DNA of 14,682 nt from contig JALLPB010000558.1 of the NCBI GenBank assembly GCA_036939975.1, positions 1-14,682 on the forward strand. Direction: 5' to 3'. The position numbers and the translations under genes are program-made. The DNA is from Cyclostephanos tholiformis. Taxonomy: Eukaryota > Bacillariophyta > Thalassiosirophyceae > Thalassiosirales > Thalassiosiraceae. Below, piece by piece: positions 1-14,682 of the stretch. Under the pieces are notes generated by a model, which ran no database searches, was not told the DNA's origin, and saw only the letters and a program-made list of their open reading frames with translations. Position 1 is the first letter of the stretch; the number at the start of each line of letters is the position of its first letter.

Positions 1-41
1 TGTCGAGGGACATGTTTTGACCAAAAGAAATTCAAAAGAAA

Positions 42-52
42 TTTGGCGGGAA
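42..52 (+). promoter_or_regulatory. E2F-like element upstream of the SLC35 gene
   Basis: TTTGGCGGGAA is a perfect match to the classical E2F/DP binding consensus and lies about 140 bp upstream of the transporter start codon. What is seen is only the 11-base match. Use of the site is inferred, and one match in a GC-rich flank could be chance. Confidence 0.3.
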
Positions 53-192
53 GTGGTGCTTAAACCCCGGCCTATGATACAGTATTTTTTGTCATCGAGG
101 GAACACAAGAATAGAAGAGAAAAAAAAAGAGGGATGACGCGCGAGACGCCGACCGTCGAGGAATTCAATTCACGCATCATACATCAACTAGA

Positions 193-1032
193 ATGGACGT
201 AAGGCCGGAAAACACCACGGCGACGACCGCACGCGCAATGTCTGCGGAGGGAGGGATGGAGGATGTCGCGTCGGACCGCCCGTCGCTCGCGGCGTACTAT
301 GACAACGACGACGACTGCGGCCGAGTGAGACGCCGGCGACGTCCTCAATCGTCGTCGTCCGACCACGACGACGACGATTCGACGACTGGGGGGGAAGGAG
401 CAGTCGTCGTACGCCGATCGGCCGCGTTCGAATGCGCGCCGAAGATTGGCGGGAGTGGGAGGGGGGTGGTGGGTGACGGTCCCCTCCTCCTCGTTTGTTC
501 GATCGGCATAACGTCGTGTTACCTGTGGTACGGCACGTTGCAGGAACGATTGTTTCGCTTGTATGACGACCATGACGACGACGACGACGGAGTAGGGAGA
601 GGGGGAGGGGGAGGAGGAGGAAGGGATGAGGGGGGGGGGAGTATGACTCTTTTCCTATTGGCGACGGGAACGTTCTCGTCGTTTTTGCTATCGTATGGGT
701 GGATCATTGTGGGGCGCATCCTATCGTCTCCACCATCGTCGTGCATAGACAATGTCAGCGGTCGCGAGGGATCAACGGCAATCGCTGGAAAAGGAGGAGG
801 GGTCGGGGAGTACACGAATGGAGATGACGACTGCGATACACTCGATCATCCCCTCATTATACTCACGTCACTAACGTACCTACTGGCAATGTCGGCGTCG
901 AACGAATCGTTGCATTACGTATCGTACCCCACCTGCGTGCTGGCCAAGAGCTCGAAGCTTATACCCACCATGGTTGTTGGTTGGATCGCTGATAAATGGT
1001 CCGGCAGGGAGTCGTCGTTGTCATCGTCGACG

Positions 1033-1066
<34 letters not shown>

Positions 1067-1896
1067 TGCATCGACGACAACGACACGCTCCCGATTGTGG
1101 CGGTCATCACGATGATGGGGGCATCGATGCAATGGAATTGATCGGGGCGGGTCTTATCACGACCGGGATTATATCGTTTCAGTACGTTCAATTACACAAG
1201 AGGCGGTCGACGAACGACGATGAGGATACCGTCGGGGGTCATGGCTTAGGAGGAGGAGGAGGGGGAGACTCGCCATACGGACTCGCGTTGTTGGGATTAT
1301 CCCTCCTCATGGACGGGTTGATGGCGGCCTGTCAGAATGCTCTTAAGCGTGGTGGTAGTGGCGGCCGAGGAAGGAGGAGGGGGAGAAGTAGGGGGGAGGG
1401 GGAGGGAGGATCCGACGAGGACGACGGCGGCATACTAGTCCCACTCCCAACGACGTCATATCGCAGAAGGCCGCCAAGCGCCATGGAGACAATGCTGTAC
1501 ATAAATCTGTACGCGACGTTGATGTTGCTTCCGGCTTCGTATTATGCCGGACAATTCCAACGCGGGATAGACGCGATGCTATCAAAGCACAAATCCATGT
1601 TGTTATTGCAACTCAATATATCGGCATCCTTGGGTCAGGTCTTTGTCTTCCTGACCGTACATCACTTCAGCCCACTCACATGCACGACCATCACCACCAC
1701 GAGGAAATTCTTCACCATACTTTTGAGCGTATATAAATTCGGGCACGTATTGAGCGTGGTTCAGTGGTTCAGCGTCGCGTTGGTATTCGCTGGCCTGTAC
1801 ATGGAAATCGTCGCCAAGTTATTCGAGAGGGGGGGGGGGAGAGGAGGACGATCATCTGGGGATACGAAGATCAGCGAGAAGAGGAAAGAGGAATAG
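193..1896 (+). CDS. SLC35B1/UTR1-type nucleotide-sugar (or ATP/ADP) transporter, ER type
   Basis: Membrane antiporter of the drug/metabolite transporter superfamily, SLC35B branch. Members carry UDP-sugars or ATP/ADP between cytosol and ER/Golgi lumen. The 567-residue frame is uninterrupted. About ten hydrophobic segments are visible, starting near residues 98, 151 and 221. Family signatures are the YGTLQE stretch after the first segment, SYPTCVLAKSSKLIP (244-258), the TTITTTRKFF motif (498-507) and the following FGH-LS-QW stretch. The last five residues are KRKEE, a KxKxx di-lysine retrieval signal, which points to residence in the ER. It is longer than typical relatives (about 320-350 residues) because of an acidic N-terminal extension of about 95 residues and low-complexity Gly, Ser and Asp loops between membrane segments. 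The first ATG of the frame is used as start; M16 and M22 are alternatives. Whether it carries UDP-galactose, UDP-glucose or ATP cannot be decided from sequence. Confidence 0.92.
1011..1066. repeat. TCG/TCATCG microsatellite inside the transporter gene
   Basis: Tandem TCG and GTCATC units encode a Ser run between predicted membrane segments 4 and 5. The reading frame is kept. Such tracts are likely to vary in length between alleles. Confidence 0.85.
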
Positions 1897-2305
1897 AGAG
1901 ATCCCACAAACACCGTAAGTACAATTTCCCTTGAACTATCCGAAAGTGGCATGACGTCGAGGTCTCGTCCTTTGGTGTTACCAATTTGACGGTTTCAAAC
2001 CTCAACTTTTAAGCTAGAAGCAACTAGAAAGGGATTGAAAAATTGTCCAGTCAACAATTTAGTGGCACAGTATAAAATCTTTTGTATGAACGTCGATGGG
2101 GACAAACTTTGAGTGTGCGTGGCTTAAATTTCACCAAGGATCTAATAAAGCAAATTTTCCAATAAACGAAGTTAGGAGTGAGTATAATTCGGGTGCATAA
2201 TTACTAGGTCCTATTTTGCGATTGCGGGGATGCAAGCCTTAGTTTCTGATTGAACAATTAATTTTTTAACACACCACTCCGATTGATAAGCATCGATGTT
2301 TGTTT
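1897..2305. other. Convergent intergenic spacer (shared 3' flank)
   Basis: This 409-bp AT-richer stretch lies between the stop of the plus-strand transporter and the stop of the minus-strand BRCT gene, so both 3' untranslated regions must lie in or across it. A consensus-like splice donor (GTAAGT) occurs at 1915-1920, just after the transporter stop. I see no RNA gene, long frame or repeat here. Confidence 0.7.
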
Positions 2306-5300
2306 TTACATTTGCGACTCGCTGACAACACAATTGAACAAGTTACTTTGACTTGACTTTTTCGGGTGATATCCAAGTTTGTAGAAGTCCTTGCAACACA
2401 GCAACACAATATTTCCCTGAAGGTTTTTTTCATCAACTACAATTTTAGCAGACGATGGACAGTCGACCAACTCATTGCCTCCGTGAGATTCCTATCATTA
2501 AAAAAATTAACGTTGAGCGTAGAGCTTTAGGGGAAGCAGAATCGCGCAAATAATACGAGCTCCTCACCAATACTTGTATTTCCAGTTTGAAGCTGTTTCC
2601 TTTATTCTCCCAGACAATACCAATAATTCTTCCGAATGAGGTTGCTTTGACACCTCGACTGAATTGGACGAGGTCCCCGACCTCATATCTAACACCAGCC
2701 TCTTTGATAGAGTAAAGGACGCATGGATTGCTCATACTAGTGCGATCAAAAGAAATCATGTATCGGACGTCTCCAAAAGGCAAGCGTTTCCGCTGAATGA
2801 TAGACTGGTGTGCCCATGCAAGATCTAAGAGAGGAACTTTATTATCAATGTGCTGTGTCAGTTTCGACACATAACCAGGAACTGAAACCACATGAGGCGG
2901 AAGTTCAGTTGACGCGGCCAAGCAACAATCGATTTTAACTTTATCGCCTTTAGGGATGTCAGAAAGTACTACGGCCCCACACGCAGTGAGAATCGTTTTC
3001 CTTAAGAGAATTCGGATGAGAAAAAAATTACGTGACTTTGATTAAAACGTCTACAAAATATAAGCACTGGACTCACCAAGCAATTTGGTCCTTTCCGTCG
3101 ACCGCCAAAGCAATGGTCATGCCATGGAAAATAGTTTCACCTTCCCCCTTAATGCGTCCTGGAGGATCCCAAGAACGTGCAGCTGATGCGCGTTGCAAGG
3201 TAAAGAACCCTCGTGATAAGTCGAGTCCGAGTGGTAGTCTATGTCTGGTGTAGAGCTCCGAGTCAAATGGCTTCGCTGCTCCATGATCTAAAAACTTTTG
3301 CTCCAAATCTGCGAGCCATTGATAGTGCAACAAAGGCGTCCCCAAAGAATTTGCGAGAATATACTTTGGTTTCCTCCAACTTGTATAGTCAGCAAGGAAG
3401 AAGACTTTTGCGCGTGCAGTTGATAGATTCAATGAATTGTGGTCGACGATTTCCCCACCTTGAGACAAAACCGTTTGTTAGATCCATTGACATGAGCAAT
3501 GCGCCATCCCGCATCAGTTGAAGCGATAAATTACTCACCAAGTTTCTTAATTTTTTCAGGGGTGTTCTCAGGAGCAGAGGAGTAAAAGAATTCTTGAATT
3601 TCATGAAGCATACAGCTTTAGAAGTGTTATAGAGACTCCAGAAACAGTGCATAAAAAAGAACTCACTGTAGCCACTAAGCGGACCGATAGGACCCCCTGC
3701 AATGCGCCTGCTGAAGGAAAGAAGACTAGTAGGGACAACAGCCTGAGTCTGAGACGAGTGAAATGATGGCGATGGAGTATCCTCTTCAAACTTTTCGACT
3801 CTTTGTCTCTTCGCTGCACTGGGGCCCTTTTTTGACCCGTGGGTGATTTCCCTCTTTGACAAAGAGTCAAGTTGACTTTTCTTCTTGGGAGTTTTTGCCT
3901 TTGAATCAGACTTCAATTCTGGTTGGAATGGCGGTGTGACTGGGCTAACCTGATACGTACTGGTAGCCCGACGAGACCGCACAGTAGAACTTAAGAGAAA
4001 GATAAATATAAGAACAAGTGCTTATACGGAGAACACAAAACGGAACGCTCCATGCGTACCTTTTGCCATGCTTAGCATCACGGTATTCAAGATTTTCATC
4101 CACAGCACGTTCGAGAACAGGCAAGATTGCGTCAAATGAGTCCGCATGATCAGAACACAAACTGGACAATTCTTTCAGCAGACTAATTTCTTTGAGCACA
4201 CATAAGACAACTTGTTCTTCGGTCAGATAATAGTCTGTTCCTAGTTGACCTTCTTGGACACCTTTTGAGCTTGGGGGGACGTAGCACCAATTTCTTATTG
4301 ATAATTTATCTCTGTAACGCTCGTGCCTCCAAGCAATGTTAGTCACGTCCCCCCCTTGGTCCTTCAAACAATTCCATAACGGTTGGAATAAAGACCCTAC
4401 GAAACGATCATGATCACCTGCACGCATGAAGTTTGATAGAATACCAATTATAGTTCGTGCGGAGGCAAGCGTAAGAATATTTCCACGTGCTCTATCACAT
4501 CGCGGATCACCATGGCGTCGGTGATTGGAGTCTTCCATGTGTTGGTCGGCTTTGCTATTCTTCAGATCAGTCACGGTGGTCTCACTGAGCGATTCATCTA
4601 AGTCACCACGTGCTGTAGCAGCGGCGATCACGTCATTAAAACAATCAAAGAAATGAATTCCAAGCTGTGTTCCTGCGTGCGTTGCTCCGTCTTTTGGTAC
4701 ATAGACTTGAACCAAAAAATGCACGAACTGTTATGTAGTATACAGATGCAAGAGCTCATAAAAAACATAGCAATGTAATTACCTTTATTATGTGGCTCAG
4801 GTCCACAAACGTATTTCCAACCAAGTTTCTGTAGCCTCTTCCAAATATCAACGTTTGACATGTTACTGCTGCTTTTATTCCTCCTCACACTCTCATTTCT
4901 ACTCTTCGTACCTTTCGATCGATTGGCCATAAGGGGTGTTTCGTCAGAATCTCTGTCACCACACACTTCTGCGCTGTGGACCAATCCTGTTTCCACCTTC
5001 TTGGCTGTACTAGAACTAAACGATGTGCCGAGCATAGTTTTGCCCGAGGAAGATGGTTTATTCTTGAGAGCAGAAATGAGAACCTTATCGTCACTTTCAT
5101 CTCCGCTGTCGCTTTCAGATCCAGTGCGTTTCTTCCTTTTGGTGGCCGTAACTGTAGGAGGTGTGCGTTTTTTTAACGCAGGCGGAGTTTCCTTCGCTGT
5201 CGCCGTCGAAGTCTTCAATCCCACACCTAATGCCCCTTTCATCTGAGCAATGACCACAAATTGCTTGTCCAAAAGAATATTTTTCTCCTTGATTATTTCA

Positions 5301-8245
5301 TCCTTTTGTTTGACTAGATCCTCGGCAAACTTGAGCTGGGTAAGTAACTTATTCTTCTCTTGGTTCAGCTTCTTAACGGATGCCTGATATGATTTCTTCA
5401 ATTGCGCTATTTCATCTGACAACTGTCTATTGCGAGAGACGTTATTCTGTATCTCTCTGGCGATAGGTAATATGTCATTTATCTCTCTCAGCTGTTCTCG
5501 AATTCGTTGGTCGGTTTGAGATTGCTGATGATCGACGACGGCATTGGTGTCATCAACATCGTTGGGTTGGTCCACGAACCGTCGGCTAATTTGAGGTCCC
5601 TGATCGTCAGAGGAATCGTCCTCGCTATCGCTGAATTCGGCCTCAGATGATGAATCTTTACGCTCGTATCTAAGGACCTTTGGTTTGATCACAGCCCCGT
5701 CGGTGCTCCTAGCCTTGGGTTTACTTTCGTTTGTCCACTTGAGATTGGAATCATTGTGCGCCGATGTCAAGGTGCCGCGAGAAAGGCGCTTGAAAGCAGA
5801 GGTCCGCTTGTTCATTTCGCTCTCGTCTTGGGTATCCTCAATAGAGTCATAACCATCATTGCTATGATCAATACCTGGCAAAGAGGTATCCTCCGATCCA
5901 TCGTCTACTTCACCACCATTAAAACTTTCATTACTAACAGTACTATCCATCGAACTCTTTTGTATGGGCTTAAATGATGGTATTTGCAGACGTGGGGAGC
6001 TGATGTAATTGGATGTCTTGTCATCCTTTCGACGAGCGCTGGTCATCCACGCAGCCTTCCCTCCACCACTGTTGTCACGACGGGATGGCGATGTTGATTT
6101 CATTACATTCATGTTGTTTACGTATTCTTCTTCAATAGCAACAGTAGTGGCGTGATCATCATTCGATAATGCGAAATGGATCATTTGTGTTGGGTCATCG
6201 AGCGCCTTGTTACGAAAACCACAGCCGTCATTCGACTTGGGGGGAGACGGGGAGGCAAGAAGTAAATCTTGTGACAGTTGTGTCGTTGCTTCGTCTCTAA
6301 CATCTCCCACCTTCTCAACATTTTCGTCGACGCCGTCGTCGTTGCAAGTCGTCTTCACCTTCGGCGATGGCGATGAATCTACCCCTCCATAAGAATGGTC
6401 CATAGGGTAAGAAATGTGCAACAACGAACCGTTTTCCGGGGTTTGTTTCATAATGCCGGGAGGTGGACTTATATCTTCATCGTTACAGACGACCTCTCTC
6501 TCTTCGATGACAAATCCATCGTTTCCGTTAGGTTGTTTCGCGTACGTCTGCTCATTCTGATATTTAGGCATCCACACATCCTTCTCGACCACGGATGCCT
6601 CAGGACCGGAGATGTGGGCTTTCATTGCCGGATTCTGGCCCTTCGAAGGATCGTCGACCGAGGACGAGGCGGCGGGAGGAATGGCTTGAGATGGCGCCGT
6701 GGGGAGCATCTGAGTTTCACAGTCATATACGGACCACCCCTCTGAACCAGACGGGACAACAATATCCCCCCCGTTAGTGCCCTCAAAGTGATTTTGACTA
6801 TCATCCTCGGAATCACAACCAATACTGGCACAACTTTTATTGATCAACGCTTCTTCTAGCTGAATATTTGAAGTGGACACCTCATCAGTCTGGACAGCAT
6901 CAAGCGCATACGTTTTAGCAGCGGGCGACATCTCACGCGGCCGTTGCTCAACTTCCTTCGGTTCATTTTCTAATTCAGAATCATCCGAATCCATCTGTGT
7001 GGTCTTGAGAGGCATCGAACATTCGCCAGTCAACGCAATGCTGTCGCTTCTAACCTCTTCCTTGTCATTCTCCGTAAGCTCTTGATTAATAGGGGAAGGA
7101 TCACCACCTGCGGTGGGATGGCGATGATATGATGATGCCGAGTCGTCGACTTGCTTCATATCGACGGACGATCCTCCGTCGGGCAATGTCTCGAGCTGCT
7201 CCGTCGGGGGCGAGGACGATGCCGTCGGCTTCTCGGGGGTAGAATCGCTACGATACACTCCTCGGCCTTTCTCGTTCATGACGGGATGGTCATACTCGGG
7301 CTCTGTCAATCCTGAAGGCATCGTATCCATCGCATGATACGAGTCGGCGGCGGGGGGCGTCGTCCTCGTCGTCGCGACGGCCTCCTCGATAACGGGCGAA
7401 GGCATCATCCCCCGCTCCTCGAGATCAACGATGACGTCCTTCAATGTTGGTCTCGCTCTCTCCTCCTCGTCCTTATCATTCCCTTCCATTCTCGTCCCCC
7501 CCCCCCACCCCTCGACGATATTACCGAATTCCTCCATCACCGTGCCGCCGTCATCTTCGCCACCGGTGCGTTGAATGCCGCCATATTCGTCGTCGTCGTC
7601 ATCGTCGTCATCGGCCGCGGCCTGGGTAAGGAGTCCGAACGATGCATACCCCCCCCCCGTCTTTGCCCCCGCATCACCGTCCCGAATTCGGATCATCGTT
7701 CGCGCCCCCCCGCCCCCATCCAATTCGTCGTCTTCCATTCCCGCGTCCGACAATTCATCGCGGACAATATTATTAATATTGGACGATCCGTCGGGACCTT
7801 CGTCCTTCGCATGTTCCTCCATCGTCATGGTATCCATCGTACCCTCCCTCTCCCGCCACGCCACCGACGGAGACGACGACGAGGATTTCCTTCCACTCCC
7901 CCCCGCGTCCGTATCTACCCGAATACGGGTCTGAGATTGAGTCGTTGGTTGAGTCCGAAACCGATCCTCGTCGTTTTCGTCGTCGTCGTCGTCGTCGTCG
8001 TCATCGCCGTCGTCGTCCCGTGTTCGTTCCTGCCGAGCCCCGACGTCGTCATACTCCTCCCAGCACCTACCGCAGTAGTAATCGCCGGGATTGTCAATGT
8101 CCTCCTCGCAGCTCGGTCCGGTGTCGCCGCATGTTCGGCACGTCGCGCATGATGGCGACTCGCCGTGATCGTCCTCGAATTCGGAATGGGGGAGACGACC
8201 GCTGCCGTCCCCCTCCGTCCAACGACACTCGTCTTCTTCATTCAT
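2306..8245 (-). CDS. Large tandem-BRCT protein with Cys-rich finger, SQ/TQ-rich region and BAH-like C-terminus (candidate 53BP1/Rad9-like checkpoint mediator)
   Basis: Seven exons, read on the minus strand: 8245-4783, 4705-4060, 3989-3667, 3592-3539, 3458-3077, 3000-2568, 2491-2306. All six introns are 70-80 bp with GT...AG ends, mostly GTGAG donors. Every junction restores frame, giving 1829 codons including TAA. Domains: Cys33, 36, 39, 46, 58 and 61, a putative zinc finger ending in a YYCGRCW motif; an acidic, low-complexity region to about 905 with 13 SQ/TQ sites; a coiled coil about 905-1003; a first W..L..LGW...YVP unit 1132-1185 and a second near 1275-1330 (YVPP at 1296-1299); a basic NLS-like stretch (AAKRQR); BRCT1 about 1466-1555; an RLPLGLDL linker resembling the YLLPAGYS linker of 53BP1; BRCT2 about 1600-1690; and a BAH-like fold to the end (VGDLVQF, then FGRIIGIVW). 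Known tandem-BRCT mediators bind phosphopeptides at damaged chromatin and are substrates of ATM/ATR kinases, so a nuclear checkpoint or repair role is inferred. The BRCT calls are strong; the BAH-like and GW/YVP calls are weaker. Confidence 0.85.
7978..8016. repeat. TCG/CGT trinucleotide repeat coding for Asp (minus strand)
   Basis: A run of TCG units on the plus strand reads as GAC codons in the minus-strand BRCT gene and makes an Asp tract just after the N-terminal Cys-rich finger. A shorter tract of the same kind lies near 7585-7612. Confidence 0.85.
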
Positions 8246-8532
8246 GATGATTGATGCTGTGCCTGCGCTTCGTCGTGTATGGTTGGTTCATATGATATAT
8301 ATTACGTTGCGTCACGTGAAAGCTGAATCTTTTGCGGAAGAGTTTCTCCAAAGAGGAAATACTACTTTACATTGTCTTGGGGGGTCAAAATGAGGGAAAA
8401 CGACTGGGGTCTCAAAATTTACTCCAAAAATTATGATGTTCCAATCGAGGTACAAATAATAAATTAGGTATAGTAGGTAGTTTAGTCCTCCCCCCCTTAC
8501 ATACTTACTTACCTATATATTAAGAGTGATCG
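8246..8532. promoter_or_regulatory. Divergent (head-to-head) promoter region with a CACGTG box
   Basis: Only 287 bp separate the start codons of the minus-strand BRCT gene and the plus-strand acetyltransferase, so both promoters must share this space or overlap. A palindromic CACGTG G-box/E-box, the usual bHLH or bZIP core, lies at 8313-8318, about 70 bp from the BRCT gene start and 215 bp from the acetyltransferase start. The region is AT-rich compared with both genes. No clear TATA box can be assigned to either side. Shared regulation is inferred. Confidence 0.55.
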
Positions 8533-8782
8533 ATGTTGTGGAACACAACCGACCCCCCGCCGCTCCTGCCCACACGCACACGCACCACCATGGTCGGCGT
8601 CCCCTTGCCATCGATGCCGATATGCCTACTACTTTTGACATGCGTAAATCGCGCGCGATGCTGGTCCACCCCTCTCACCACGACGATGATCCGCGATCCG
8701 TCGTCGTCGTCGTCGTCGTCGTCTTCCCTCCATCGTTCGTCGTCCCGCCAAGAACGTCCCGCTCGTCGTAGCGGCGGTCGGA

Positions 8783-8814
<32 letters not shown>

Positions 8815-8925
8815 TCCTCGTCGCGTCCGACGCGGCGACCGCCGCGCGGGATCGTCGTCCTCGCCTCCTCCCCCCCCCCAACGAGCTTCGACAATGATGT
8901 CGATGTCGTCGTCATCGACGACGAC

Positions 8926-8957
<32 letters not shown>

Positions 8958-9735
8958 CGTCGTCGCGTACGACGATTACGTCGTCCGTGAGGTCACTTGC
9001 AGGTCGAGGGCCCTGGACGTGAGGGTATTTCGCGGATTCTCGCGCACGGCGCTCGAATACATCGAGGATCATCGGCGATCCGTCGTCGTCGGCGTCGGCG
9101 ACTTCGGAGGCGGAGGAGGAGGACGCGTGGGCATCGATCCCGCGATGTCCGAGGAGGAGGCGATCGATCGTCTGATGCGCGATCACGACGTGGATGGGAA
9201 ATACGTCATGGAAGGACCACGACGCGGCATCGACACCGACGAGGATGGGCCGTATCACGTCCCGGAAACGTACTTCGTCGCGATATACAACGGTACCGAC
9301 CGCGACATGATCGATTCGTTCGATAGGTCGAACGGCGTAGTCGGCGTGGTGAGCGCGCAGCCCCGTCGGGGGGGGATATCGTCGCTCCTCCCTCGCGACC
9401 ACGTTTACGTCGCCAACATGAGGGTCGACGAGAGGATGCGTCGACGGGGGGTGGGAACGGCCCTGCTCGCGTCCGTGATTACATGGAATAACAGCAACGA
9501 CGACGAAGACGACGAAAACGAAGACGAAAACGAAGACGAAAACGAAAACGAAAATGAAAACGAGGGGCCCGGTTGGAGTGCGCGCCACAAAAAAGAAACG
9601 TTGACGATCGCGCCGCCGTTGATTCTGTCGGTGGACAACGATAATTTAGGGGCCATACGATTGTACGAGAGGCTCGGCTTCGATTACCTGGAGCGGAATA
9701 GTCATTTCTGCGTCATGATATCGCGGGCGTCTTAG
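8533..9735 (+). CDS. GNAT-family N-acetyltransferase, possibly organelle-targeted
   Basis: The C-terminal half is a GNAT (Gcn5-related) acetyltransferase, which moves an acetyl group from acetyl-CoA to an amine. Motif A is clear: strand VYVANMRV (291-298), then the R/Q-x-x-G-x-G/A pyrophosphate loop RRRGVG (303-308) and TALL. The C-terminal motif VDNDNLGAIRLYERLGF (367-383) is the standard helix-strand signature that carries the conserved Tyr. An acidic Asp/Glu/Asn insert (323-344) sits between motif A and the C-terminal strands. The first 130 residues are low complexity, with Ser and Asp runs. A hydrophobic stretch (PICLLLLTC) ending near RARCWS resembles a secretory or bipartite plastid signal. 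The start is uncertain: ATG at 8533 gives 400 residues, but ATG at 8590 (M20) has a better context (ACCATGG) and places the hydrophobic stretch nearer the N-terminus. The substrate cannot be predicted. It is transcribed away from the BRCT gene and ends 148 bp before the tubby-like gene. Confidence 0.88.
8700..8822. repeat. Two TCG trinucleotide tracts coding for Ser
   Basis: Nearly pure TCG repeats at about 8700-8723 and 8783-8822 encode two Ser runs in the N-terminal region of the acetyltransferase. They also open long false frames on the opposite strand. Confidence 0.85.
8916..8957. repeat. GAC/GAT trinucleotide tract coding for Asp
   Basis: An uninterrupted run of GAC and then GAT codons encodes about 14 Asp residues (around 129-142) ahead of the acetyltransferase domain. 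The GAT part is a pure microsatellite. Confidence 0.88.
9499..9564. repeat. GACGAAAACGAA-type tandem repeat coding for an acidic insert
   Basis: Imperfect six- and twelve-base units of GAC, GAA and AAC codons encode the Asp/Glu/Asn insert (residues 323-344) within the acetyltransferase fold. Confidence 0.85.
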
Positions 9736-9883
9736 TGGCGACAAGTGAGTTCTTAGGGCTACGTCTATACAACAATATACTTTTAAATTTTGGGTCCGGG
9801 AAAAATTTCAAACGGGGGGGTTTTCGCTTCGTTTTTTTTTTTCTTTTTCCGCCGAGATCTCGGGAGCGGAAACTGTTCCTTGG
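9736..9883 (+). promoter_or_regulatory. Short spacer and presumed promoter/5' leader of the tubby-like gene
   Basis: This 148-bp spacer separates two genes on the same strand and must hold the 3' end of the acetyltransferase and the start region of the tubby-like gene. It contains a long T tract (9832-9848, broken by one C) about 40 bp before the first ATG. No TATA box is evident. Confidence 0.4.
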
Positions 9884-12105
9884 ATGATCCCCCCAGCACC
9901 CATCAGTATAAGAGCAATGGATTCCTCGGACAATGACGCCTCTCGATCGATCATGCTCAGACGGCAGAGAGAGGCGGCCCTGCGAAGGCGCTCGTATCAA
10001 ATGCCGCCAAAAAGCGATGAAAATTGCGAGGACGGCTGCCGTTCTGCCGCGCCAATGCGCCGAATAGGTTCGGCGTCAACGATCGCGGTGGAAGACGTCA
10101 TGGCTTGGGAGGAGGCGAAGAAGAAGGAAAGGATCGAGGCAAGGATCAAGGAGGAAGGGATCAGGAGAGCCAAGGAAGCCAAGATGAGGGCCGAGGCGTT
10201 GGTGGTGGAAGAGGAAGAAAGGATCCGAAGGCTGGAATTTGAAAAGTACGAAAAGCATAAATTAGACATCCGAAGAAAGCTGGAGGCGGATGAAATGGAA
10301 AAGGCGGCGCGCAAATTAGACGAGGAGAAGGCAGAGAAGCGGAGACTGGCAGAGGCGATAGCCGAAGCTGAGCGATTAGAGAGGGAGATGTTGGAGAGGG
10401 AAAGGTTGGCGAGGGAGAAGTTGGAGAGGGAAAGGTTGGAGAAGGAGAGGATGGACAGGGAGAGGATGGATAATGATAGATTAGAGAAAGAGAGGTTGGA
10501 GAGGGATAAAATGACAAATTTGGAGAGGAGACTGGCCGAAGCCGAGAAAGCAAGGATGGAGGCTGAACGACTTGCCGAGCGTGCATGCAGGATGGAGCAA
10601 CTGCTATCTATGGAGAGTCGGTCCAGCGCTCCCAGCGCTCCCCCTCAGACGAGTGGAAGTATTGACCTCAAATGCAACCCCGTCTCTGGAAGAGCAACAA
10701 ACCCCGACTCGAAAAATGAATACCCCAACGGTAATGGAACGAGAATGGTCCACCTCGCAAATTTCGCAATATCAGATGGAAAGACAGGGCAGGCGACGGT
10801 CTCCGATCACGAAGTTCAGGGACGATCAACTCAAGACATGACAGGCAGTAACAGCGGTTATCAGCGGTACTTGGCGACATTTCACCAGCCATCCAGTGTC
10901 GGCTATGACGGAATTAGTGGAGGAGAAAGTGGCACGCATGCCCCTTCAGAGTCGTCTGAAGGGTACAGTCCCAGCGATTGTACGCCGATGTTTCAACCCG
11001 GCCCGAACAGACCGACAACTGCTCCTATGACAAAATCACCAGAAAAAAAATGCCAAAAGATCAAACGCAGCGTTTCAACACGATCCTTGATGTTTGCAGA
11101 TACCGTCGCAACAGAAGAAATGAAGACATCGGAATCGTTCAGTAATGACGCACCTCGTCAGGAAGGTTCAAAACTCCCCTTAGAAAAAATCCAATCCCTT
11201 CAGCATATCACATCCATTGACAGTGTGAATCTCGGTGACCCAATATTTATGCGCTATTTTCTAATGAAGCCGTGTCCCAGAGGATTGGGAATGATCCAAT
11301 GTTACGTAAGGAGGAATAAGGGTATCAAAAACGCGTTGTTCCCTGAGTATCGGATGCACCTCAAAGGCAGCGATGGAAAATCTCAGACGTTCCTCATGAC
11401 GTCGAAGAAGCGTGGTACGATGTCTCTTTTTACTCCACTGCTTAAATTTCATCGACAAAATTACCAACTCTTCTTCCACTAGTTGGAAACACAACTTCCA
11501 ACTACCTCATTTCCATGAGCAGGAACGATCATGATAAGAACAGCGACAGCATCCTTGGAAAGTTGAGGAGCAATTTCTTGGGGACAGAATATCACATTTA
11601 TGATAACGGGAAGAACCCAGAATACGAAGAAGTATTCTTCGACGAGAAGAATGACGGAGAAATCCGCTGTGAACTAGGTGTTATACTGTATGCTGCCAGC
11701 ACCTCGCTCGGGTCCAAGGGTCCGCGCAAAATGAAAGTATGTATTAGCAAAGTAGACGAAGATGGCCTCCCGCTGAAAGTGTGGAATCCAACGAAGAAAG
11801 ATGACGAGTCAATGGCGAACTGCTTGAAGAAAGAAACGAGATCCTTTGACAAACTTTACCTTCTATATAATATGCCCCCCAGCTGGAACGATGAAGCGGG
11901 GACATGCGTGCTTAATATCAACGGCAGGGCGACCATGGCAAGTGTAAAGAACTTTCAACTTTGTACGCATGACGAACAAAATATTATGCAATTTGTAAAG
12001 ACAGGCAGCGACGAATTCAGCTTAGTAGTGCAGTGGCCGATGTCTCTGTTTCAAGCATTTGCAGTGGCGTTGTCATCATTTGATTCCAAGCTTGGATGTG
12101 ACTGA
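9884..12105 (+). CDS. Tubby-like protein with charged helical N-terminal half
   Basis: Two exons, 9884-11414 and 11483-12105, are separated by a 68-bp intron with a GTACG donor and a CCACTAG acceptor. Joining restores the conserved TSNYLIS strand and gives 717 residues. Residues about 452-717 form a full tubby C-terminal domain: DPIFMRYFLMKPCPRG at its start, the basic SKKR segment (507-510) in the strand where tubby binds PI(4,5)P2, GKLRSNFLGT (536-545), GPRKM (590-594), SVKNFQL (664-670) and the terminal SSFDSKLGCD. Known tubby/TULP proteins bind phosphoinositides at membranes and act in ciliary trafficking or signalling; the role in this organism is unknown. Residues about 70-243 are almost entirely charged helix with pentads of the LERER type (165-209). 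Residues 244-450 are Ser/Thr/Pro-rich and probably disordered. M12 (ATG at 9917, context GCAATGG) is an alternative and perhaps better start. There is no F-box like that of plant TLPs. Confidence 0.95.
10376..10510 (+). repeat. 15-bp tandem repeat coding for LERER-type pentads
   Basis: Nine consecutive 15-bp units encode five-residue blocks such as LEREM, LERER, LAREK, LEKER, MDRER and LERDK (residues 165-209 of the tubby-like protein). The units are diverged but all stay in frame. A five-residue period does not fit the seven-residue period of a classical coiled coil. Confidence 0.85.
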
Positions 12106-13020
12106 GTATGGCGTCAGGGTCCTCCCTTTTCTTAATGGTACAAAACATTTAAGATTCAATGAACAGAACCGCTGAGCATATTTGAAGCTGTGATCTTCTT
12201 TTCAGAGACAACCCTCACCCTAACCGTGAGAATGACAACGCCGACACTAGATATCAGGGTGCTGATCACGTCGACGGCAACTAATGTACCTAGTGTAAAC
12301 CTCAGACGGGAGCAGTAAGAACAGTAAATTTCATCCGTGAAATAAATCGCAGTTCCCCAACATAGTTAAGGTTCCACTACGAATGATTCACTCGATGTGA
12401 AGATGATACCTCTCATTTTTAAAACTGAAAAAAATGATGATGCTAACTCCGCCAAGGGGAATAGGATGAGCTCAATTTTTAAACCACTGCCCCACCGCCC
12501 CACCGCCTATTACAACGGTGACCTTCTCTGTCAGGGCAATGTCCAAATAGCAGCTTTATAGAGGGAAATATAAACATTATCGAGTTCTTTGTAGGAAGGT
12601 TTAATTGCAATGTACATCCTGCCTGTATGCTAGCTCCACCTCCATTTGGAAAGAATGCAAATTGTCCAAGTGTAACAAAAAAGAGTGTGCCATTTGCCTA
12701 ACCATGCATAACATTGCATTGGAAGCATTTCTCTCTGCAGGAATGAGCTGTCTCTTTTATGAAATGTACTTGAAAGGATTTGGGTGGACATTATTCCCAA
12801 ATTGAGCTGTGGCAGATTAATTAAGTGTGAGATCACTTCTCATCTTAAAACCCTTCTTACAATGAAACCAAATCCCATCCAAAAACAGATCAGCGATGTC
12901 ATTAAAGTTACAAAGGATGTATCTACTGCTATTTGGTCCTGGAGTGGCACTCGGGTACTTTCCTTGAGTATCCCAATCTGCCATTTGCAACTGAGGATTC
13001 TGTAAAAACAACTGGTGGAC
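12106..13020. other. AT-rich intergenic stretch without a supported gene
   Basis: After the tubby-like stop the sequence loses the GC-rich, trinucleotide-repeat character of the genes. The first part must contain the 3' untranslated region of the tubby-like gene. A short CCCCACCG duplication lies near 12488-12505. Open frames here are short. One with several Cys residues (about 12605-12805) and a piece near 12945-13020 reading EYPNLPFATEDS in one frame may be upstream debris of the NUMOD3 remnant, but neither can be assigned to a family. No tRNA or rRNA was seen. Confidence 0.5.
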
Positions 13021-13318
13021 ATGTATGATTATGTAGTGGAAAAAAGGAGGAGGGAACTAAGCAAGAGCAACCCAAGGGGACCACCATCTGAAGAAACTAA
13101 AGCCAAAATGAACAAGCTAAAGGGACCAATGTTGGAAAACCAAAAAAGCCAAAAACATTGCCCTAAAACGCATGCCGAGGGGACCAATGTTGGAAGAACA
13201 CAAAGCCAAAATGAGCAACACTCAAAAGGGCAAGCCTAGAGCATCACCCTCCCTAGCAAGAATAAAAAATAAAGGACAGTGTAAGAACATCTACATGGCC
13301 ACCATAAATCATTGGTAG
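13021..13318 (+). pseudogene. Frameshifted remnant with NUMOD3-type DNA-binding repeats
   Basis: Three NUMOD3-like units are visible. The first, GPPSEETKAKMNKLK, lies in one frame. The second starts as GPMLENQK in the same frame and continues as AKNIALKRMPR in another. The third, GPMLEEHKAKMSNTQKGKP, is in the second frame, which stays open to TAG at 13316-13318. The frame change lies in or near an A6 run (13142-13147). NUMOD3 motifs are short DNA-binding helices found in GIY-YIG and HNH homing endonucleases and similar mobile or nuclease genes. No nuclease domain is visible and the upstream sequence is closed by stops, so this looks like a broken fragment. A sequencing error or an unrecognised intron could also explain the frame change. 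Confidence 0.6.
13122..13195 (+). repeat. Direct repeat GGGACCAATGTTGGAA in the NUMOD3 remnant
   Basis: An identical 16-bp unit occurs at 13122-13137 and 13180-13195, 58 bp apart. Each copy encodes the start of a NUMOD3-like unit (GPMLE), so the repeat reflects duplication of the protein motif. Confidence 0.85.
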
Positions 13319-13356
13319 CCTTTATCATCCCTTAAAATCATATTTGCAATCCCTAA

Positions 13357-13602
13357 GAGATCAAAGGAAATTGCCTATTGTAGTGGTGAACAATTTTTTA
13401 ATTCAGGCACTAGTTAACCTGGCAACAATGAGCTTATCTGGCAAACAGATCACAGAAAATTGCCATTTTGTGGCAAAGTTAGTGTTGGGAATTATTTTTG
13501 AATTCAGGCCCTAGTCAATCTGGCAACAATGAGTCAATCTGGCTATTTTTGGCATCAGTCAATCTGGCAAATGCTATGTAGAAATCAGAGATCAAAGGAA
13601 AT
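13357..13602. repeat. Cluster of imperfect direct repeats in AT-rich DNA
   Basis: Two roughly 52-55-bp imperfect copies lie at 13391-13442 and 13489-13543, sharing TTCAGGC-CTAGT followed by CTGGCAACAATGAG and TCTGGC. The element GTCAATCTGGC recurs at least three times up to about 13569. The 15-mer GAGATCAAAGGAAAT flanks the group on both sides, at 13357-13371 and 13588-13602. The copies are too few and too uneven for a CRISPR array, which would in any case not be expected here. Confidence 0.75.
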
Positions 13603-14583
13603 CGACTGAAATGCGCATAGTGAAGAAATCTACCTTGGTATTCTAGGCTTGATGACATGCTGTCTACACACAAAAGCTGAAGGAAGACCATGAAAAGGGA
13701 GATAATTATTGCATGGAAGTAGAGCGGACTGGCAAATATTGAGCTTGGAGCATTTTTGTTCATTTCTAAGCGACTTCAGCTCATATTAATTCCATAATGT
13801 TGGCACTAATTTTTTGCTTTTCTGGGAGCCTGTTCTTTACAATATGAGTAGCATGGTAATTATTAGCTAGAGTAATATTGTGTTCTTTAAAAATCTAATA
13901 AAAACCTCTTGTTCATTTTCTACATAGGAATAAGAACAAGTGGATGATGAATGTCCACAACAACAAAAAAAGAACACCACCATGGTTGAGCCGCTCGCTG
14001 GGTCTGGCGGCATGGCTACAGCAAACAAGGCAAAACCCTCGTGGTTCCATCTTTGCGATGGGATTAACGATGGCTATGTCAAAGGATTTTTCTAATTATG
14101 TAAATCGGCTGAGAAAAAATAATTTAATAAACTCATCAATTAATTCAACTATACCATATTTTCGATCATGATCCTCTGGTGCCCCCTGATGTGTTATTTT
14201 ATTATTTTCCTGGTTAAACTACTTTTCTACAGTTTTCTACATAAGAATCTCCTTTTTTTTGAGCTAGGTACTCTACCTAGTTAAATTTTTGCACACCTTT
14301 GCGCACTCAGAGAGTGGCGGAAACAATGTTTTCTAAGATTTTTGGTGAGAGGAATTCGCCCAAAACAAGCAAATACTATTTTTAGTATCGTGCTATCGTA
14401 TTTTCTAGACAATTTTTGTATGAATGCACTACCTATAAAAGCCCCCCCCCCCTTTGCCTCATCCCCTGTTACCAGAAGGTTGGTTAATGGTGTTTCTCAG
14501 GGTGTGATTTTTATGAGAGAGATAATATTACTCTGCAACCCCGTCATGGTTATGTGTGTGATAGCACATGTTGTAACATTTCG
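13603..14583. other. AT-rich stretch without a supported gene
   Basis: No recognisable protein, tRNA or rRNA was found. A locally GC-richer block at about 13975-14075 supports two short overlapping frames. One begins at an ACCATGG context (13982) and reads 37 residues, including KPSWFHLCDG, before a stop at 14093-14095. A C10 homopolymer lies near 14443-14452. Confidence 0.45.
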
Positions 14584-14647
14584 CATGTTTTTATTCCCAC
14601 GCAGTCAAGTTCCATCATGTTTTTATTCCCGCGCGGTCGATTTCTAT
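14584..14647. repeat. Two-copy 32-bp tandem repeat
   Basis: Adjacent 32-bp units at 14584-14615 and 14616-14647 share the start CATGTTTTTATTCCC and then diverge slightly (ACGCAGTCAA against GCGCGGTCGA). Only two units lie in the window, and the repeat sits near its right edge. Confidence 0.75.
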
Positions 14648-14682
14648 CGTACCATTAAATGTTAAAAATTGTACGTAGGAAT

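Follow-up and report, generated by a model that had tools for sequence, protein, structure and literature searches.

The 14,682-nucleotide window analysed here (Cyclostephanos tholiformis contig JALLPB010000558.1, positions 1 to 14,682) encodes a protein of 1828 residues, which joins a tandem BRCT of the 53BP1 type to a long acidic arm rich in SQ/TQ sites and which we consider, with a probability of roughly 60%, to act in the diatom as a DNA-damage scaffold in the manner of 53BP1, Crb2 or Rad9, with accessory domains of its own. The features behind this proposal are a single gene, the 53BP1-type BRCT pair with an invariant Ser and Lys, selective conservation of Ser and Thr before Gln, a common C-terminal SQ and the lack of a detectable Tudor domain. 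A first-pass annotation, made from the DNA letters without database searches, had named the protein a candidate 53BP1/Rad9/Crb2-like checkpoint mediator; the likeness stood, since 53BP1 comes first among solved structures and shares the family BRCT_3, and the mediator function stays a prediction.

In Pfam, the part of the window protein from the BRCTs to its end matches PF00533 (expectation value, E, 9.6e-7) and, below the family cut-off, BRCT_3 (PF18428, 5e-5), values that become 8.3e-5 and 0.0011 when all 1828 residues are scanned. PF00533 is also matched by all seven members of alignment A1, which holds the closer sequences, window protein counted, and these PF00533 and BRCT_3 matches bear out the tandem BRCT seen at first pass. 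The class of the pair was read from a second profile, A7, built from 8 of 12 aligned rows by dropping closer copies and keeping the two most distant members of the family, P0024 and P0043. When A7 was searched against the PDB, three 53BP1 chains came out on top (6.5e-8 to 7.9e-8), aligned across profile positions 19-238, which take in both repeats and the linker between them. After 53BP1 came Mdb1 (0.0043), TopBP1 (0.0057), Crb2 (0.010) and MDC1 (1.6), so the E-value of the next protein is ~7x10^4 times that of 53BP1, and the profile comparison with 53BP1 and Crb2 that had been suggested as a check (6.5e-8 vs 0.010) comes out for 53BP1. Alignment of A7 with the 53BP1 sequence by hhalign gave an E of 1.2e-9 and a probability of 96% across 180 columns with 23% identity. 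In addition, BRCT_3, which is the best Pfam family of 53BP1 itself (9.6e-40), is matched by seven of the eight A7 members (best 3.2e-8), the eighth, P0043, being without the second repeat; the earlier placing of the pair and its linker in the 53BP1 class therefore holds.

Several results weigh against this placing or limit its support. Searched alone against the PDB, the window sequence reaches only Mdb1, at an E of 1.4, and not 53BP1; the A1 profile finds TopBP1 (0.05) and Crb2 (0.2), with 53BP1 not among its matches, so that 53BP1 comes out on top only after the distant members are added to the profile. A7 scores 35.0 bits on 53BP1 and at most 4.3 bits on the open reading frames (ORFs) of eight other BRCT loci of the same genome, an uneven control because these six-frame ORFs are single exons that may hold one BRCT only. 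BRCT_3 is also not exclusive, as another BRCT protein of this genome matches it at 3.6e-4 and prefers BRCT_2 (4.4e-11). The 53BP1-type class of the BRCT pair is thus well supported through the family profile, not through the window sequence alone. A side observation concerns L010 (G000:C493, minus strand, 1-2094), which encodes a further BRCT protein in this genome (BRCT_2 4.4e-11); its frame continues into a weak Pkinase match (0.0015, below cut-off), and it is a possible BRCT-kinase fusion.

Within the first BRCT, the Ser and the Lys at what we presume to be the phosphate pocket (S1482 and K1527) are invariant in all eight A7 rows. From BRCT structures we take S1482 to be the second phosphate-binding residue, and the Lys of the 53BP1 motif RTRKY, to which K1527 corresponds, is presumably K1814. 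K1814M is a named phospho-binding mutation of 53BP1 (PMC5065530). Two details argue the other way: the counterpart of 53BP1 T1812 is Lys in 9 of the 12 rows, with Asn, Arg and Thr in one row each, and directly after the conserved Ser the window protein has a further Ser, where the 11 remaining rows have Gly.

When six GT-AG introns of 70-80 bp are joined, the frame stays open for 1828 residues to a stop that ends at position 2306, and this seven-exon model on the minus strand reproduces the spliced protein of about 1828 residues described at first pass. It is identical to P0001, a partial Cyclostephanos tholiformis protein, at 1530 of 1541 aligned residues (99.3%). P0001 is the public model ACHAXA_005930, which is marked partial and is without the 54-bp exon 4 that encodes the first BRCT strand and the conserved Ser; this exon is kept in relatives having complete first BRCTs, so the exon 4 of the first-pass annotation is right and its loss is probably an error of the public model.

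A protein search with residues 1130-1828 as query returned seven relatives (P0001, P0002, P0003, P0004, P0005, P0006 and P0007), and after two more searches, run with rearranged profile queries, the set numbered 43 proteins. P0002 is from Stephanodiscus triporus, P0005 from Thalassiosira exigua and P0022, by its taxonomy identifier, a Thalassiosira rotula transcript; the organisms named among the relatives number four, all Thalassiosirales. These relatives also speak to whether a wrong gene model has fused two adjacent genes, as might be suspected from a first exon of 3463 bp followed by short ones and from the 1400 residues that lie between the N-terminal finger and the BRCTs. The first-pass annotation had asked whether transcripts would split the protein into two genes, and P0003, an MMETSP transcript ORF of 2288 residues labelled complete, runs in one frame from the finger through arm and BRCTs to the C-terminus; the finger/acidic part and the BRCT part are therefore one gene. 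The finger-to-BRCT order is the same in P0002 and the arm-to-C-terminus order the same in P0004 and P0024, and we reject the fusion artefact as extremely improbable, unless this species has transcripts of another make-up. Even the distant P0024 follows the order of the window protein from GW1 through GW2 and the BRCT pair to the C-terminal domain; P0010 (770 residues) consists of GW-GW-BRCT-BRCT and C-terminal domain, and the gene model of P0005 is without GW1.

Across residues 1-1230, Asp and Glu make up 19.7% and Lys and Arg 11.5%, and the whole protein has 21 SQ/TQ sites (14 of them before residue 1130), a total reached by 0.5% of 2000 shuffles (11.5 +/- 3.0), in agreement with the long acidic, SQ/TQ-rich region noted before. 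Of 15 sequences, 7 show the excess over shuffles at p <= 0.02; as a point on the other side, it is not significant in 8, several of which are fragments. Conservation was scored outside the domains, with the window and P0001 rows excluded, sites with fewer than four rows dropped, and a residue counted as kept where at least 80% of rows have Ser or Thr. By this measure Ser or Thr before Gln is kept at 9 of 15 sites, as against 34 of 183 for other Ser and Thr (Fisher p 9e-4, an optimistic value given related rows and an uncertain arm alignment). The best conserved sites, window and P0001 counted, are T511 and S519 (10/11 each), T655 (12/12), S658 (11/12), T805 (12/12), S909 (12/12) and T1451 (13/13). 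Conserved TP/SP motifs at residues 602, 665, 719, 1028 and 1403 stand beside SQ/TQ sites and are possible sites for cyclin-dependent kinases, as known from Rad9. The profile of the helical segment that starts with SQTD has matches in 14 of 44 sequences, P0024 not among them.

A feature beyond those of the first-pass annotation is an SQ at the very C-terminus. Sixteen sequences hold the C-terminal domain and 14 reach its end in frame (P0009 and P0011, whose frames depart from the family sequence within the domain, were excluded); 12 of these 14 C-termini have the SQ, or 10 of 12 if the window/P0001 and P0017/P0022 pairs each count once. Ten of the 12 SQ-bearing proteins stop one residue past the Gln, as SQM, SQI, SQR, SQQ or SQL, P0015 has two residues more, and the model of P0002 continues for 89. 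As a point against, P0024 and P0026 are without the SQ. The tail is like that of H2A.X but one residue short of SQ[E/D]-hydrophobic, so the likeness is a lead and no more. The BRCT domains of yeast Rad9 bind that protein's own SQ/TQ cluster once Mec1/Tel1 have phosphorylated it (PMC2916856), so binding of the phosphorylated C-terminal SQ by the BRCT pair of the same protein is thinkable here.

At the N-terminus, the Cys-rich finger recognized earlier (Cys 33, 36, 39, 46, 58 and 61) is real in that its Cys core is common to the window protein, P0002 and P0003; its matches in Pfam are all below cut-off, the best being zf-P11 at 0.0098 with the P0003 copy. A CxxC is absent from the N-terminal 200 residues of P0004, P0006, P0007, P0024, P0042 and P0012, some of which may start late, so the finger does not look like part of the family core. 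Matches of the finger profile to P0004, P0006 and P0007 were discarded as forced alignments, and no second copy of the finger was found in the same genome.

Between the arm and the BRCTs, the two GW/YVP domains of the first-pass annotation exist as conserved stretches, and that they are one domain present twice is suggested faintly by hhalign (P 0.0017 in one comparison, yet an HH probability of 6%) and by the GW1 profile, which touches the GW2 place of P0029 (0.0071) and P0028 (0.084) in a small sequence set. They match no Pfam family significantly, the profile covering both (A3) has no PDB match, and the genome outside the window gave no further copy of either beyond one 26% match at an E of 3.85. 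They lie, we presume, where 53BP1 has its tandem Tudor. An MBD identity was tried and rejected, as hhalign showed no similarity to the MBD matches of the same genome. Those matches, in four ORFs (L015-L018), range from 0.00027 to 0.0027; by eye, L017 also has Tudor-like and DNA-methyltransferase-like stretches and L016 has CXC-type Cys repeats.

The domain after the BRCTs is likewise real and conserved, P0024 matching its family profile at 6.7e-12 in a set of 44 sequences, but the label BAH-like given to it finds no support and was rejected. None of the nine members of its profile (A8, from 9 of 11 aligned rows, closer copies dropped) matches Pfam BAH (PF01426) at E <= 10, the domain has no PDB match at E <= 10, and hhalign against two stretches of L014, which has a weak BAH match, aligned 8 residues each (scores 14.8 and 12.9, vs 14.6 and 21.8 for the best of 20 shuffles). 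Weak Pfam matches to KIF2A-like_1st (0.021), ABC1 (0.11) and KOWx_SPT5 (0.12), each from one of the nine members, are put down to chance or to an SH3-like core in common. L014 itself (G000:C353; BAH 0.002, below cut-off) has by eye a second similar stretch and, with an ATP-binding GPPGTGK, looks ORC1-like. Conserved though they are, neither the GW stretches nor the C-terminal domain match any family searched.

When whole proteins were scanned with Pfam, no Tudor came up at E <= 10 in the window protein, P0002, P0003, P0004 or P0024, nor in P0008, P0010 and P0043, which are perhaps incomplete. This counts against a full likeness to 53BP1, and the earlier statement that no Tudor precedes the BRCTs holds as far as these scans reach. 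They are modestly sensitive, having missed the P0004 BRCTs that were seen when the region was scanned alone, and a Tudor that has diverged strongly, or GW stretches folded like a Tudor, could have escaped them. The five whole-protein scans found no FHA and, finger included, no RING. The order of finger, arm, GW stretches, BRCTs and further domain is, as far as tested, as unfamiliar as first reported. Since a Tudor, one of the parts that define the 53BP1 family, was sought and not found, the protein is called 53BP1-like through its BRCT pair, and is not filed as a member of the 53BP1/Crb2/Rad9 class, though it may work like these proteins.

Table 1. Features of the 53BP1-like protein and their positions in the window
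Feature	Residues	Positions	Strand	Evidence and remarks
Whole coding region, 7 exons	1-1828	2306..8245	-	exons 8245-4783, 4705-4060, 3989-3667, 3592-3539, 3458-3077, 3000-2568, 2491-2306
N-terminal Cys-rich finger	33-61	8063..8149	-	core C-x2-C-x5/6-C-x11-C-x2-C common to P0002, P0003
Acidic, presumably disordered arm with most SQ/TQ sites	98-805	5831..7954	-	composition, site conservation
Conserved TQ/SQ pair	511-519	6689..6715	-	TQ and SQ each in 10/11 covering rows (window and near-identical P0001 counted)
Helical, coiled-coil-like segment (by eye) starting SQTD	905-1012	5210..5533	-	family profile; SQ at 909 in 12/12 covering rows
GW1 stretch	1131-1192	4593..4855	-	interrupted by intron 4782-4706; family profile
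GW2 region	1230-1369	4062..4481	-	family profile; weak likeness to GW1
53BP1-type tandem BRCT	1472-1712	2733..3685	-	introns 3666-3593, 3538-3459, 3076-3001; Pfam and PDB profile matches
Candidate phosphate-binding Ser of BRCT1	S1482	3579..3581	-	invariant column S11 of A7
Counterpart of Lys in 53BP1 RTRKY	K1527	3364..3366	-	invariant column K56 of A7
Conserved C-terminal domain	1727-1821	2330..2690	-	intron 2567-2492; family profile
C-terminal SQM, adjoining stop	1826-1828	2309..2317	-	SQ in 12/14 relatives reaching the end, window counted

The neighbouring genes in the window, all on the plus strand, encode a UAA-type nucleotide-sugar transporter (115-1896), a GNAT acetyltransferase (8590-9735) and a Tub-family protein (~9915-12105) that is read in two frames and probably has an intron around 11446-11480.

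In the proposed working of this protein, DNA breakage would lead ATM/ATR-type kinases to act on the C-terminal SQ and on those SQ/TQ sites of the acidic arm that are conserved, phosphorylating both. A phospho-SQ ligand, either gamma-H2A.X or, as in yeast Rad9, the phosphorylated SQ/TQ of another molecule, would be bound by the 53BP1-type BRCT pair, the conserved helical segment could aid self-association, and the GW stretches and C-terminal domain might hold chromatin while phosphorylated SQ/TQ pairs recruit effector kinases. We infer all of these binding, phosphorylation, oligomerisation and checkpoint steps from the parts described above.

Other functions can be read into the same parts. The protein could belong with a different class of tandem-BRCT adaptors (TopBP1, Mdb1/MDC1 or BRCA1/BARD1-like), its likeness to 53BP1 being general BRCT similarity, as might be concluded from the lead of TopBP1 and the absence of 53BP1 with the closer sequences only, and from the matches of Mdb1 and TopBP1 (the latter at profile positions 5-164) to A7 as well. 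This appears unlikely, because the E-value of 53BP1 is the lowest by a wide margin and its alignment spans both repeats and the LPxG linker, whereas the Mdb1, Crb2 and MDC1 matches are one stretch of 31-48 positions each; the BRCT_3 second repeat common to 53BP1 and the lack of FHA or RING matches in the five proteins scanned argue the same way. It is similarly doubtful that the protein is a chromatin, replication or transcription factor which has BRCTs outside the damage checkpoint and SQ/TQ sites that are incidental: GW stretches and a C-terminal domain of no known family would suit such a factor, and the conserved TP/SP sites suggest cell-cycle kinases too, but the preference for keeping Ser or Thr before Gln and the type of the BRCT pair are hard to reconcile with it.

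A somewhat stronger contender, though still improbable, is that the protein works in the manner of MDC1, with a BRCT pair that reads gamma-H2A.X and an SQ/TQ arm that amplifies the signal by docking FHA-domain proteins. The conserved TQ sites (T511, T655, T805 and T1451) and the invariant Ser and Lys of BRCT1 would fit this, as would the placing of diatom proteins within a stramenopile RC H2A and H2A.X clade (PMC12459048). The PDB search with A7 speaks for 53BP1 over MDC1, however, and no FHA domain was found. H2A.X was not found in the incomplete assembly of this genome, from which a single H2A was recovered (L011/L013, G000:C306); its last residues, LPKKSATK, include no SQ, and beside it on the opposite strand lies an ORF that by eye looks H2B-like. 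The scaffold of the 53BP1/Crb2/Rad9 kind thus remains the preferred reading.

A survey of 47 species dated TP53BP1 to animals (PMC3969565), and a literature search, with most subscription journals outside its reach, returned no paper combining BRCT, diatom and 53BP1 and, among the titles listed, none describing such a protein. If the proposal is true, a 53BP1-type BRCT pair in diatoms would point to a far older mediator class or to a second origin in another supergroup, would suggest that the Tudor histone reader is replaceable, and may extend damage-response scaffolds of the 53BP1 kind beyond animals and fungi. We also entertain, as a long shot, that a 53BP1-type mediator predates the split of animals and fungi from other eukaryotes, that diatoms keep the BRCT pair and arm but read chromatin through new GW domains instead of the Tudor pair, and that each protein's H2A.X-like SQ tail, once phosphorylated, is bound by the BRCTs of its neighbour, which would allow spreading without a histone mark. 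For the handling of DNA breaks by diatoms, the protein is a concrete candidate that can be tested in transformable species. This kind of scaffold is already known, and what appears new is a 53BP1-like BRCT pair without a detectable Tudor and with unfamiliar conserved parts.

Among known systems, the closest likeness is to human TP53BP1 (PDB 1gzh, 1kzy and 5ecg), which shares the tandem BRCT, the linker (NYLLPAGYSL in 53BP1, HRLPLGLDL here), the BRCT_3 second repeat and the Lys of RTRKY, and which also has a long SQ/TQ-bearing arm. It differs in that the diatom protein has GW stretches in place of a Tudor, of which none was found, a conserved domain after the BRCTs, an N-terminal finger in some members, and a Thr at the T1812 counterpart in 1 of 12 rows. 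Fission yeast Mdb1 and human MDC1 are alike in the BRCT1 region (RRTHKFLLATSLGIP vs WRKPKYILANSLGTP), but their overall match is weaker and MDC1 has an FHA domain, which was not found here. TopBP1, the third-ranked molecule in the A7 search of the PDB, matches much less well than 53BP1 and has a many-BRCT architecture that is absent here. Crb2 (Rhp9) of fission yeast and Rad9 of budding yeast share the SQ/TQ arm and the BRCT pair, but with a short sequence match only, no Tudor found in the diatom protein and another domain after its BRCTs. In Crb2/Rad9, the tandem BRCTs are paired with phosphorylated H2A and the Tudor with H4K20me2 (PMC11143218). The closely spaced TQ/SQ pair T511/S519 resembles in its spacing the T73/S80 pair of Crb2, which recruits Chk1 (PMC3390401).

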